56,859 nucleotides of DNA, taken from Methanolobus sp. (lineage in GTDB: Archaea > Halobacteriota > Methanosarcinia > Methanosarcinales > Methanosarcinaceae). Position numbers and translations under genes: made by a program. The stretch is taken from NCBI RefSeq assembly GCF_016278385.1, contig NZ_JADQBY010000011.1:1-56859 (forward strand), given 5' to 3'. Position 1 is the first letter of the stretch; each line of letters starts with the position of its first letter. Positions 1,009-27,311 of the stretch are shown here, piece by piece. The notes under the pieces were generated by a model that saw only the letters and a program-made list of their open reading frames with translations, ran no database searches and had not been told where the DNA came from.

Positions 1009-1970
1009 ATATTTTCCAGTTTCTCCATTTTTCTTTTGATACTTGAAGCATTATCGCTGTGCTTTTTAAGGATGCTTTCGAACTCATCCTTGCTGAGCTT
1101 GTTCTTTTTGTAGTCTTCTTCGATCTTTGCAATGACTGCAAGTTCTGCCTCGTATCTGTCCCTGAGTTCATCCATGTCCTCTGAATTTCCTTTCCTGTAG
1201 TATATGATTGCAGTGGCTATGATAATGACAACCAGTATTCCGGAGATTATGAATGGATTGATTGTGGTTTTAGAGGTCTCATGGTAGTTTTCCTCTTCAA
1301 GAGTGACCATGAATTCTGTGAACTGCGGGGCTGACCAGATATAGGATGTCTGGTTTGATTCACTCATGGATTCATCAGCTATGATGGGAGTACCGTCTGC
1401 TGAAGTAACAGCAGGCACTTCGTTTTCTCCATGATTGACAATGATTATGAGCCTTGAAACGGGATAACCGAAGACATTTTCTTCCCTGAGGACCTTGTTG
1501 AATGTAGTGACTTCTTCATGGCTGTGTACTGAATATCTGATTCCGTAAAGCAAAGGCATATTAGTGGAATTTGAAATATCTGGTGAGTTGAAGTAAAGTA
1601 AATTGCCATTCCTTGAGTAATTAACAGCCGTGCTGGCCACGGTTGCCATCATGTCTGTTGTTTGGAATTGCATAATATCAGCATTTTCAGGTATCCATAA
1701 AGCAAGTTCTTCACTTTTATTTTGCGAATCTGTTGAGTAAACTAAGGCTTCACCTGCAACAATGTAGTTATTCTCGTCGAATGATAATTCAATCAGGTGA
1801 CTGTATTCTGAGATACCTGCCTGATGTGCGGGGGTAAGAACTGAAGATGAATTATTTGTAATATCCGGAGTATCTGACATTGCCAGGACAGGGTTCTGCA
1901 AAAAGAAACAGCAAATGCATAGTACCAGAAATGCAGGAATATATCTTAATATGTGACTTTTTGTCTTCAT
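1005..1970 (-). CDS. Secreted/membrane-anchored protein with C-terminal cytoplasmic coiled coil
   Basis: From the ATG at 1970 the product begins with a typical Sec signal (MKTKSHILRY then a long hydrophobic run ending NPVLA). An extracytoplasmic domain of about 210 residues follows. Near the C-terminus comes a transmembrane segment (FIISGILVVIIIATAIIYY) and then a charged, helical, probably coiled-coil tail of about 60 residues. The topology is therefore outside domain, one membrane pass, cytoplasmic tail. In-frame starts also exist upstream (ATG at 1997, TTG at 2024), and none of the three has a clear ribosome site. I do not recognise the family; the layout suits a sensor or adaptor at the membrane. 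Confidence 0.6.
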   Translation of the reverse strand: MKTKSHILRYIPAFLVLCICCFFLQNPVLAMSDTPDITNNSSSVLTPAHQAGISEYSHLIELSFDENNYIVAGEALVYSTDSQNKSEELALWIPENADIMQFQTTDMMATVASTAVNYSRNGNLLYFNSPDISNSTNMPLLYGIRYSVHSHEEVTTFNKVLREENVFGYPVSRLIIIVNHGENEVPAVTSADGTPIIADESMSESNQTSYIWSAPQFTEFMVTLEEENYHETSKTTINPFIISGILVVIIIATAIIYYRKGNSEDMDELRDRYEAELAVIAKIEEDYKKNKLSKDEFESILKKHSDNASSIKRKMEKLENI

Positions 1971-7467: not shown

Positions 7468-7724
7468 ACCTGCTTGAATATTCACTTATCTTCATGGTGA
7501 TCACTTTTATACCCTGTATCTACAGGGTTATTAAAGGACCAACCATTCCTGACAGGGTCGTGGCCCTGGATGCAATGACAACAGTCATTGTTGTCATGCT
7601 CGGTATCTACTCATTTGTAAAAGAGTCAGTTTTCTTCATGGATGTGGCACTTGTTCTTGCTATTATATCCTTCGTTGGAACGGTCACAATTGCAAAGTAT
7701 CTTGATGAAGGGGTGGTATTTTGA
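7464..7724 (+). CDS. mrpF: Mrp antiporter subunit F
   Basis: This small protein (86 residues) has three helices. The family motif RVIKGPTIPDRVVALD lies near residue 22, including the conserved aspartate region between helices one and two, and ALVLAIISFVGTVTIAKY is near the C-terminus. It is a normal MrpF in its expected place in the operon. Confidence 0.93.
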   Translation: MNLLEYSLIFMVITFIPCIYRVIKGPTIPDRVVALDAMTTVIVVMLGIYSFVKESVFFMDVALVLAIISFVGTVTIAKYLDEGVVF

Positions 7725-8092
7725 GTACAGTTTCAATGGCTCTGGAAATGCTGAGCAACGGTATTCTTATTATAGGACTTTTCTTTGTGTTCCTTGCAAT
7801 GCTTGGACTTGCACGTCTTCCTGATGTGTATAACAGGTTGCATGCAACCACTAAGATAGGAACACTGGGTGCATTTAGTGTCATGCTCAGTATACTGCTT
7901 AAAGTGGGCTTTTCCCCCATGGGTGTAAAGGCAATTACGGTGGCACTTTTCATTCTGATCACATCTCCTGTGGCAGCTCATATGATAAGTCGTGCAGCTC
8001 ACCGTCATGGGGTAGGTCTCTGCAAGGAGTCTGTAATTGATGAATATGGTAAAGCATGCTCAGCTGCGTGCTCAGTAGATGAGGATGAGTAA
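7721..8092 (+). CDS. mrpG: Mrp antiporter subunit G
   Basis: The product has 123 residues, three membrane helices and the MnhG motif RLPDVYNRLHATTKIGTLG near residue 28. It probably starts with TTG at 7721, which keeps the four-base overlap seen throughout the operon; an ATG five codons later is the alternative. A cysteine-containing hydrophilic tail (CKESVIDEYGKACSAACSVDEDE) extends past the last helix and is longer than in many bacterial MrpG proteins. It is the last gene, and a hairpin terminator follows within 20 bases. Confidence 0.9.
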   Translation: MSTVSMALEMLSNGILIIGLFFVFLAMLGLARLPDVYNRLHATTKIGTLGAFSVMLSILLKVGFSPMGVKAITVALFILITSPVAAHMISRAAHRHGVGLCKESVIDEYGKACSAACSVDEDE

Positions 8093-8140: not shown

Positions 8141-8237
8141 TAAAATTAGATTAAAATCACATCGCAGCGATATGTTTAGTCGTGTGCTACAATATGTTTT
8201 CCCATTAACCAGAATTCCGACTTCCTTTATTGTAAAC

Positions 8238-8297
8238 GTGAGCGGGCAGGGGAGTGGGGGTTAGTGTGGGAGTGGGGTTAAAAATAGGCCCGCTCAC
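8238..8297 (+). other. G-quadruplex motif enclosed in a 10-bp stem
   Basis: GTGAGCGGGC (8238-8247) and GCCCGCTCAC (8288-8297) are perfect inverted repeats. The 40-base loop holds four G runs (8249-8252, 8256-8260, 8268-8270, 8274-8277) with loops of 3, 7 and 3 bases, the classic quadruplex pattern. It stands in the 450-base gene-free stretch between mrpG and the Sua5 gene, apart from the operon terminator at 8107. I see no open frame there. The role is unknown. Confidence 0.6.
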
Positions 8298-8543
8298 AGC
8301 GTGAATAGAAGAAATAATCATATATAAGTATTGTCTTTATCGGAGTATCAGTCTAAATATGTGTCGTATCAGGATAAAATATAAATCCATCTAACTTCAT
8401 TGTCATATTAAAATTATATGTATTGATGTCATATGTGAACAAAAAAACTTATGAGCTTAATCATCTAATATGGCTTTACTCTATTGTATTGTCTGTAAAA
8501 AACACACTTTTAATACAATATCAGTTTTTAATACAACAGGGTT

Positions 8544-9596
8544 ATGAATAAAAACACAAGAGTATTTCATGTAAACGGAAAAGCTCATGAAGAGCAGATA
8601 CGTGAAGCTGCCCGGATATTGAAGGAAGGTGGGCTTGTTGCTTTCCCGACTGAAACAGTCTATGGGCTTGGGGCTGATGCTCTTAATGAAAAAGCTGTAA
8701 TGCAGATATTTGAGGCAAAGGGCAGGCCTGCTGATAATCCGCTTATAGTTCATGTAGATTCCAGGGAAAATTGCATGAAGCTTGTCAGAAACATACCAGA
8801 AAAAGCATTATTACTGATGGATGAATTCTGGCCAGGTCCTCTGACTATAATAATGAAAAGAAAGGAAATAGTTCCCGATGTTACTACGGGAGGACTGGAT
8901 ACTGTAGCGGTCAGAATTCCTGAGAATAGTGTTGCCATAGCATTAATAAAATATTCAGGGAAACCTATTGCTGCTCCCAGTGCTAATCTATCAGGAAAAC
9001 CTAGTCCTACAACTGCAGGTCATGTATTACGTGATCTTTCCGGAAGGATCGATGCAATCATTGACGGCGGGGACGTTACCATTGGGCTTGAATCTACAGT
9101 TATTGACATGACTTCTGAAGTTCCTGCAATATTAAGGCCTGGGAAAGTAAGTAAAGAAGAGATTGAGGGTTGCATTGGGGAAGTAAAAATAGGGTATGAT
9201 GACAAAGTTCACCCGGAAAGTGAAACTGTCCGCTCTCCCGGGATGAAATATACTCATTATTCTCCTGAATCTAATGTTGTTCTGGTTGAAGGAGAACATG
9301 ATCCAGTAGTTTCCAGAACAAAAGAACTGATTGCTGATTTTAATCTGAGAAATGCTAAAATAGGACTCTTGCTTACAGAAGAAAGTAGATCCAGCTTTCC
9401 GGGAATTTTATCATATTCCCTTGGTAATAAAAATGAACCTGAGCAGGCAGCAAAGAATTTATTTTTTGGACTTCGATATCTTGATGAACAAAAAGTTGAT
9501 ATTATAATTGTAGATGGCTCTTTCAGGAAGGATGGGATCGGAATGGCTGTTTTTAACAGGGTACGTAAGGCTGCTGATATGATAATTAAGGTATAG
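8544..9596 (+). CDS. sua5: L-threonylcarbamoyladenylate synthase (Sua5/YrdC family)
   Basis: The enzyme makes threonylcarbamoyl-AMP from threonine, bicarbonate and ATP, the first step of the t6A modification at position 37 of ANN-decoding tRNAs. The N-terminal YrdC domain (about residues 10-200) has AFPTETVYGLGAD, GRPADNPLIVHV, PGPLTIIMK and AAPSANLSGKPSPT. The linker SPGMKYTHYSPE near residue 228 and a C-terminal Sua5 domain bring the length to 350, normal for the long Sua5 type. It is transcribed alone or with the small membrane protein 7 bases downstream. Confidence 0.92.
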   Translation: MNKNTRVFHVNGKAHEEQIREAARILKEGGLVAFPTETVYGLGADALNEKAVMQIFEAKGRPADNPLIVHVDSRENCMKLVRNIPEKALLLMDEFWPGPLTIIMKRKEIVPDVTTGGLDTVAVRIPENSVAIALIKYSGKPIAAPSANLSGKPSPTTAGHVLRDLSGRIDAIIDGGDVTIGLESTVIDMTSEVPAILRPGKVSKEEIEGCIGEVKIGYDDKVHPESETVRSPGMKYTHYSPESNVVLVEGEHDPVVSRTKELIADFNLRNAKIGLLLTEESRSSFPGILSYSLGNKNEPEQAAKNLFFGLRYLDEQKVDIIIVDGSFRKDGIGMAVFNRVRKAADMIIKV

Positions 9597-10013: not shown

Positions 10014-10097
10014 ATGAATTACGTCTATTCTACAAAATATGTTTTTGTTTAACTTAACACAAGCCATACATGATGTTAAGCACATATAAAAGTGTGT

Positions 10098-11210
10098 ATG
10101 TCAAAAGCCTACAAATATAGAATGCATCCTACAAAAGAGCAGGAAGAAATGTTCTTTCAACACTTCGGTTCATGTAGGTTTGTCTATAATTGGGTTTTAG
10201 AGCAGAAAATAAAAACCTATGAACAGGACGGAAAATCAGTATCTAGGTTCACTTTGAATACTATGATAACAAAGTTGAAAGAAGAACACGAATGGTTGAA
10301 GGATATTAATTCACAATCATTGCAGGGTGCTACACTTAACCTTGAAAATGCATTCACTAAGTTTTTCAGAGAGAAGAAAGGATTTCCAAAATTCAAATCA
10401 CGTAGGAATCCAGTACAATCCTTTTCAGTTCCACAATTCTATAAAATGAATTACGATAATAACAAAGTAAAATTACCTAAAATTGGATGGATAAATACAA
10501 AAATACATCGTAGATTTACTGGAATCGGAAAAACTGCCAATGTATCCAGAACACCGACTGGAAAATTCTATATAAGTATTCTTGTTGATGATGAACAGGA
10601 GCTGCCTGTTAAACCCATCTTTAACGAAAAAGTGACTGTTGGTATTGATGTAGGTATCAAAGACTTTGCAGTTCTCTCCAACGGGGAGAAAATAGAGAAT
10701 CCTAAATATCTCAGACATTCAACGAAAAGCCTTGCATTTCTTCAAAGAAGATTATCAAAAAAACAAAAAGGTTCAAAGAACAAGGCAAAGGCTAGATTCG
10801 CAGTATCAAAACTTCATGAGAAAATAAGTAATCAACGACATGATTTTCAACATACGTTATCCACTAAGCTCATAAGCGAGAATCAAGCGGTAGCATTGGA
10901 AACTTTAAACATTAGCGGTATGTTAAAAAATCATTGTCTTGCACAAAGCATAGTAGATGCTTCATGGAGTTCTTTCGTAAATAAACTTGAATATAAAGTC
11001 GAATGGTATGGAAAAACCATTCTTCGTATTGGTCAATTTGAGCCATCTACAAAAATCTGTAATGTGTGCGGATTTCATAACGGAAAATTAACACTTGCAG
11101 ACAGAGAATGGAAATGTCCTGATTGTAATACCAATCATAACAGAGATATTAATGCCGCTATCAATATCAAAAAATTTGCTCTTAATAAGCAAAACTTAAT
11201 CGGAATTTAG
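10098..11210 (+). CDS. tnpB: TnpB, RNA-guided nuclease of an IS605-type element
   Basis: The product has 370 residues from the ATG at 10098 (an in-frame GTG lies two codons upstream). The N-terminus AYKYRMHPTKEQEE is typical of the family. The RuvC catalytic residues are all present: Asp in GIDVG (about residue 184), Glu in VALETLNISGML, and Asp in NRDINAAI. A zinc finger (CNVCGFHNG ... CPDC) lies between the last two. TnpB is a programmable DNA nuclease that uses an omega-RNA made from the right end of its own element and helps the element persist. No tnpA transposase is beside it, so it is of the TnpB-only (IS1341) type. Intact and probably functional. Confidence 0.93.
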   Translation: MSKAYKYRMHPTKEQEEMFFQHFGSCRFVYNWVLEQKIKTYEQDGKSVSRFTLNTMITKLKEEHEWLKDINSQSLQGATLNLENAFTKFFREKKGFPKFKSRRNPVQSFSVPQFYKMNYDNNKVKLPKIGWINTKIHRRFTGIGKTANVSRTPTGKFYISILVDDEQELPVKPIFNEKVTVGIDVGIKDFAVLSNGEKIENPKYLRHSTKSLAFLQRRLSKKQKGSKNKAKARFAVSKLHEKISNQRHDFQHTLSTKLISENQAVALETLNISGMLKNHCLAQSIVDASWSSFVNKLEYKVEWYGKTILRIGQFEPSTKICNVCGFHNGKLTLADREWKCPDCNTNHNRDINAAINIKKFALNKQNLIGI

Positions 11211-27254: not shown

Positions 27255-27281
27255 TTGTGCTTGAACCTGTACATTGAGGGT

Positions 27282-27311
27282 TCAGGAGGGCTTGAGGGCA
27301 GGGCTTTCTTT
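27282..27311 (+). repeat. Direct repeat copy 1 (with a copy near 27951-27980)
   Basis: TCAGGAGGGCTTGAGG followed by GCAGGGCTTTCTT recurs as CACAGGAGGGCTTGAGGCAGGGTTTTCTT at 27952-27980. Weaker similarity continues downstream in both (TTGTAGGG about 50-70 bases on). The two copies flank the C2H2 zinc-finger gene. Confidence 0.5.

Follow-up and report, generated by a model that had tools for sequence, protein, structure and literature searches.

In bacteria, the small RNAs RsaE and sX13 each have a stem that exposes a C-rich loop, and they are taken to act on G-rich ribosome-binding sites. We know of no sequence relation between these bacterial RNAs and the archaeal hairpin family reported here and, to our knowledge, the archaeal regulatory RNAs described from more than one genus are few. 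Published accounts of Methanosarcina mazei state that loop 2 of sRNA154, as well as sRNA41, mask ribosome-binding sites (PMC5867862, PMC11456600). Like our hairpin RNA, sRNA41 is intergenic, comes from the same archaeal family and is proposed to work by such masking (PMC5867862), a likeness that concerns the description. sRNA154 is likewise comparable by description, as a structured RNA whose loop is reported to carry an anti-ribosome-binding-site sequence, but it is described as Methanosarcina-conserved and nitrogen-regulated (PMC5867862, PMC11456600), whereas our hairpin family spans a class. Within the genus of our host, a study of Methanolobus psychrophilus lists 195 intergenic transcript starts and cold-induced sRNAs, with nine highly conserved sRNAs sharing a 'cold box' upstream of the promoter (PMC5378194).

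The locus examined here lies in a Methanolobus sp. genome of 2.88 Mb, in a window by which we mean the whole 56,859-nt stretch of DNA that was analysed. Positions 8297-8238 (minus strand) very probably encode the hairpin at the 5' end of an independent small non-coding RNA, whose gene would have a TATA promoter of its own; from its sequence setting, we infer that this gene is transcribed. The RNA family would span the class to which Methanosarcina, Methanolobus, Methanothrix and ANME-2 belong. It appears to be uncatalogued, and its loop appears to be unusually constant.

Structure and setting of the hairpin

The first-pass annotation of this DNA had singled out a 10-bp GC-rich stem around four G runs of the standard quadruplex type, as a stable intergenic structure after the mrp genes, and each of these observations holds. 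The perfect 10-bp stem pairs GTGAGCGGGC (8238-8247) with GCCCGCTCAC (8288-8297) around a 40-nt loop, and is the sole stem in the window with 10 perfect base pairs, at least eight G/C and a loop of 20-60 nt; dinucleotide shuffles (100) gave a mean of 0.01 such stems, with a maximum of 1. The plus-strand loop carries G runs in the order GGGG, GGGGG, GGG and GGGG, with one more GGG within the stem, and the G3+N1-7 pattern (four runs of at least three G, loops of 1-7) fits at 8244-8270 on the plus strand. Two matches to this pattern occur in the window, the other at 27278-27303 (plus strand), against a mean of 0.09 and a maximum of 2 in 100 dinucleotide shuffles.

Read as minus-strand RNA, 8238-8297 is GUGAGCGGGC-CUAUUUUUAACCCCACUCCCACACUAACCCCCACUCCCCU-GCCCGCUCAC, with a folding energy of -18.9 kcal/mol. 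Between the 5' arm GUGAGCGGGC (8288-8297) and the 3' arm GCCCGCUCAC (8238-8247), the loop runs from a U5 tract (8280-8284) through a first motif CCCCACUCCC (8268-8277) to a second motif CCCCCACUCCCC (8249-8260), which adjoins the 3' arm, all on the minus strand. This fold has a z-score of -6.44, with none of 200 shuffles equally stable, and of -5.52 when flanks are added. As plus-strand RNA the hairpin is less unusual, with a z-score of -2.08 (7 of 200 shuffles equally stable), and raw energies over an identical stretch were -22.9 kcal/mol for the plus and -19.1 kcal/mol for the minus strand under a fold model that lacks quadruplexes.

The neighbouring genes, assigned by Pfam domains and synteny, are mrpG for a Na+/H+ antiporter subunit (7721-8092, plus strand; PF03334), convergent with the proposed RNA, and sua5 for threonylcarbamoyl-AMP synthase (8544-9596, plus strand; PF01300, PF03481), divergent from it. 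Both genes flank the hairpin in 24 of 27 Methanolobus genomes; two of the remaining loci end at a contig edge and show the sua5 side only, and one (L040, genome G012) has neither gene within 1.5 kb. In a second genus (g21), the mrp side is retained at the three loci checked. The loop pattern is present in all 27 Methanolobus genomes and all six g21 genomes, and a 121-base BLAST query matched 24 of 24 same-genus relatives searched, with best identities of 85-97% over part of the query. Conservation in close relatives, on which the first-pass annotation had made its reading depend, is thus found. An IS605-group TnpB/OrfB-type gene also lies in the window (10092-11210, plus strand), without visible link to the hairpin.

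Copies on the mrpG side (for example L005, L007, L008 and L013) have a G tract complementary to the loop, GGGAGU or GGGGU, about 10-15 nt 3' of the hairpin. In 34 mrpG-side tails, the longest loop complement averaged 5.79 nt, compared with 4.88 nt after shuffling (maximum 5.24 in 50 rounds), an excess over shuffles that was absent from 119 other tails. A loop-tail pseudoknot is possible in the mrpG-side copies.

Strand, promoter and open reading frames

Promoter-like signals are strongly asymmetric between the two strands. Of 146 flanks on the C-rich strand, 112 have a TATA-like hexamer 27-34 nt before the conserved GAGCGG, as do 6 of 149 on the mirror strand; 200 shuffles gave a mean of 9.8 of 146 (maximum 18). 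It is mainly on this asymmetry that a plus-strand RNA was rejected. T5 runs within 60 nt downstream are found in 62 of 153 C-strand and 20 of 146 mirror-strand flanks, and T4 runs in 110 of 153 and 80 of 146. TATA position and flanking T tracts together favour the minus strand as the RNA, which would make the G-rich strand the template. A comparison of G.U with A.C cells in two family alignments (A2 and A3, defined below) is a weak test of strand, because the asymmetry of A2 (24 to 9, favouring the C strand) is absent from A3 (9 to 10).

At our locus, the predicted TATA box CTTATATAT (8320-8328, minus strand) sits about 27 nt upstream of the hairpin, a position enriched across the family, and predicts a transcription start at about 8297-8303 (minus strand). 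The M. psychrophilus dRNA-seq study places BRE and TATA elements some 19-22 nt away from the transcription start (PMC5378194), a spacing that fits an RNA beginning with the hairpin or shortly before it. A terminator-like hairpin with a T-rich tail at 8158-8174 (minus strand), picked up solely by a consensus scan, is a weak candidate for the 3' end. The predicted length of the RNA is 60-150 nt.

With a simple ORF caller, and with close relatives over-represented, 156 of 158 copies fall outside ORFs of at least 90 aa. By position and predicted TATA box, the hairpin thus has the features expected of an intergenic gene with its own promoter. A coding RNA was rejected, as judged by eye, since the length of the U run differs among Methanolobus copies and the frames hit stops.

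The surrounding ORFs also bear on whether the hairpin acts in cis, either as a riboswitch or 5' leader belonging to the following gene or as a terminator for a convergent one. Many copies do sit between convergent genes, and the T5 run that follows in 62 of 153 would suit a terminator. Yet, following the C strand downstream, the first ORF of at least 90 aa shares that strand in just 33 of 139 cases and is on the opposite one in 106, mrpG is convergent here, and a plain terminator would need no fixed loop and no TATA box upstream. We consider a cis element unlikely.

Copies in the host genome and distribution across archaea

Looking for copies elsewhere in the genome, as had been suggested, yielded three further BLAST matches (C21:18424, C15:21093 and C9:9720), and a covariance model of the family (R1) gives four matches in total, that at our locus spanning 8237-8297 with 65.7 bits. 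The paralogues L002 and L004 hold a nearly identical loop inside quite different stems. The C21 copy has a single C motif, and as a query it matches 95 of 111 family genomes, part of them via other family members; it lies between an ATPase gene that we read as topoisomerase VI B (on generic Pfam support) and a gene that we take to encode the RFC large subunit (Pfam score below cut-off). H+-pyrophosphatase genes occur near L002 and near the Methanosarcina-type copy L088.

Several features of individual copies were also seen. Two or three tandem hairpins within 0.2-1.5 kb, each with its own TATA-like sequence upstream, occur at L096, L097, L101, L085 and L105. In Methanolobus copies of one type (L003 and L058-L084), the hairpin is closely followed on its 3' side by another C-rich stretch, ACTCCACTCC or a similar sequence. 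Possible remoter relatives in the host genome lie at L224:1471-1520 (plus strand, the same as L223:1824-1873; E 0.19) and L240:1471-1520 (plus strand; E 0.32). The L004 copy (1486-1556, minus strand) begins 16 nt past the end of a DDE transposase ORF.

Of the 185 genomes of the order, 170 have R1 matches, representing 25 of 27 genera, as have 115 of the 117 good ones (at least 90% complete, at most 5% contaminated), with 1-12 matches per matching genome; among sampled relatives of tractable Methanosarcina laboratory strains, most have a single R1 match. A phylum-wide draw of 392 genomes yielded 83 with a match, all within the same class: 69 belong to the order and 14 to Methanotrichaceae. In this draw, 289 non-matching genomes are unlisted, and it says nothing on absence within the class. 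Among named genomes, an exact pattern was found in 111 stretches, nearly all of them Methanosarcinales and Methanothrix-type records, covering Methanosarcina, Methanolobus, Methanococcoides, Methanohalophilus, Methanomethylovorans, Methanosalsum, Methanothrix, Methanocrinis, Methanoperedenaceae and ANME-2. A hairpin in a 'Methanomethylicia' MAG (L209) is probably on a contaminant contig, because it is identical to that of a Methanotrichaceae-like genome (L332), and a match in a Planctomycetota MAG (L198) looks like chance.

This distribution bears on a further reading, that the hairpin is not a gene and is instead a mobile repeat, MITE-like or IS-derived. Such a repeat would account for several copies per genome, and the transposase ORF beside L004 and the TnpB-type gene in the window would agree with it. 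However, the hairpin keeps a fixed place in 24 of 27 Methanolobus genomes, copy number is low, diverged stems keep their loop, and matches extend across 170 of 185 genomes of the order; we therefore regard this reading as scarcely credible.

Rfam 15 returned no match at the gathering score in the window or in nine loci with family members, and a search of six more loci with E values of up to 5 produced a single sub-threshold match, outside the hairpin. Among the papers listed in our literature searches, none describes this family, and searches with the loop motif string returned no archaeal paper by title among the matches listed. Single copies may already be present in the M. mazei (2009) or M. 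psychrophilus (2015) sRNA tables or in the sRNA41 paper. Genome G078, which we take to be M. psychrophilus R15, has three R1 matches, to be set beside the nine conserved sRNAs of that species.

Covarying stems and a near-constant loop

From 173 extracted hairpins with a C-rich core, 158 passed the filter, 101 were distinct and 70 entered alignment A2. Copies with other stems (L002, L004, L027, L031 and L105) are out of register in A2, which lowers its score, and were excluded from A3. The latter has 50 rows (47 distinct), including 22 placed by the covariance model in other families of the class, some of which overlap pattern-found records (L325, L327, L328 and L329).

Pairing is well maintained in both alignments. 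In A2, 94.3% of stem cells are paired, compared with 31.6-51.2% when the arms are slid, and both partners vary at nine of the 11 pairs; the count of doubly changed cells is 42, compared with 11.9 after shuffling, and none of 500 shuffles reached it. In A3, 39 cells are doubly changed against 8.8 (again none of 500), and paired cells and the covariation score also exceed all 500 shuffles. Two A3 measures were less distinctive, as the count of doubly changing pairs (5) was reached in 27 of 500 shuffles and the pair-type count in 251 of 500. Compensatory variants in A3 run from GAGCGGG/CCCGCUC to GGGCAGG/CCUGCCC and GAGCAGG/CCUGCUC. The stem is a real element, above chance.

Whereas the stems covary, CCCCACUCCCC in the loop is nearly invariant, and the exact CCCCACTCCCC occurs in 47 of 50 A3 rows. 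What is kept across the family is the C motif, a run of at least four U (95 of 100 distinct hairpins) and stem pairing; two-motif loops make up 39 of the 100. Part of the loop constancy is a selection effect, because many members were collected with the motif and the model weights it.

The division into one- and two-motif loops also bears on how the G runs are to be read. The first-pass annotation is partly supported, in that the plus-strand pattern is there, but its emphasis on a quadruplex is misplaced: the conserved features and promoter signals point to the minus strand. A functional plus-strand quadruplex, in DNA or RNA, held by the stem would agree with the four-run G pattern here and in 34 of 39 distinct two-motif hairpins. 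The same pattern is found in 1 of 61 one-motif hairpins (35 of 100 overall), and G4 potential exists because two C-rich motifs are present. We accordingly rejected the quadruplex as a conserved feature, since the pattern is missing from 60 of 61 one-motif hairpins, and a plus-strand DNA quadruplex, which may form at 8238-8297, cannot account for the conservation of the family. With promoter signals on the opposite strand as well, a functional quadruplex is very improbable.

Candidate partners of the loop

That a stable stem presents an unpaired loop under constraint suggests that the RNA binds a partner. We propose that the covarying stem would serve as a scaffold and the loop as the working part, in which a U tract is followed by one or two unpaired CCCC(C)ACUCCC(C) motifs. 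G-rich Shine-Dalgarno regions would be fitting partners of such a C-rich loop, which may pair through putative short seeds with G-rich stretches of mRNAs; the likeliest sites are Shine-Dalgarno regions such as GGGGAGUG, where pairing would lower translation in the manner reported for sRNA154 and sRNA41 of M. mazei. It is possible that an Sm-like protein binds the U tract. By analogy with these systems, reduced translation through ribosome-binding sites is a putative mechanism that we rate somewhat below an even chance; the predicted RNA gene and the ribosome-binding-site mechanism, taken jointly, fall just short of even.

The main rival to mRNA pairing, and nearly as likely, is a protein partner. 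A dedicated protein could recognise the U tract and CCCCACUCCCC loop and be titrated, guided or scaffolded by the RNA in a CsrB- or 6S-like manner. A near-constant loop over a covarying stem, several copies with one or two motifs each, the lack of an extended mRNA complement and Shine-Dalgarno sites no more enriched than a control 8-mer (both below) would all agree with this, although the loop sequence would suit base-pairing too. We give this protein-binding role a substantial minority likelihood.

More broadly, and tentatively, the hairpins may constitute an undescribed class of structured sRNA in nearly all Methanosarcinia. Its near-constant U-tract/CCCCCACUCCCC loop would bind one dedicated partner, which could be an RNA-binding protein specific to the class or ribosome-binding sites as a global set. 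The RNA would be a general regulator in archaea that produce or oxidise methane, its copy number (1-12) being set by lineage; as a whole, we lean against this picture without discounting it. For this family, a consensus and a covariance model are now available and the place in the genome is fixed; its hosts include tractable methanogens (Methanosarcina) as well as ANME-2 methane oxidisers. As loop constancy implies a constant partner, a core regulatory interaction of the class becomes testable.

Target searches did not lend positive support to mRNA pairing. In the host genome, the 11-nt loop complement GGGGAGTGGGG occurs solely at the four hairpins, and a long antisense target was rejected on this ground. 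Across 10 genomes, the 8-nt complement GGGGAGTG lies before ATG in 71 cases (a few of them hairpin loci), compared with 77 for the control GGAGGGTG, a non-complementary Shine-Dalgarno-like 8-mer; read backwards, the two patterns gave 36 and 48 matches. The pattern GGAGTGGG before ATG in 27 genomes had 283 matches against 207 backwards, hairpin loci included. Duplexes of the loop with 87 Shine-Dalgarno windows were no stronger than those of shuffled loops (-10.7 against -10.8), and the host cdhB site stands at the 39th percentile among these windows, a set biased to loci found with the 8-mers. The CdhC family was found in six genomes, and the cdh regions of five, when compared, had mixed duplex energies.

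Thirty loci were fetched for each 8-mer set, 16 per set having an ORF of at least 30 aa. Two ortholog pairs have a common GGGGAGTG site, a nitroreductase-like pair (L262/L287) and a corrinoid protein (L267/L282) that we take to be HgcA, compared with none for the control; weaker paralog pairs occur in both sets. Finally, the start region of L308 carries GGGAGTGGGG, a candidate site of 10 nt complementary to the first loop motif; the ORF that follows is presumably pirin-like.
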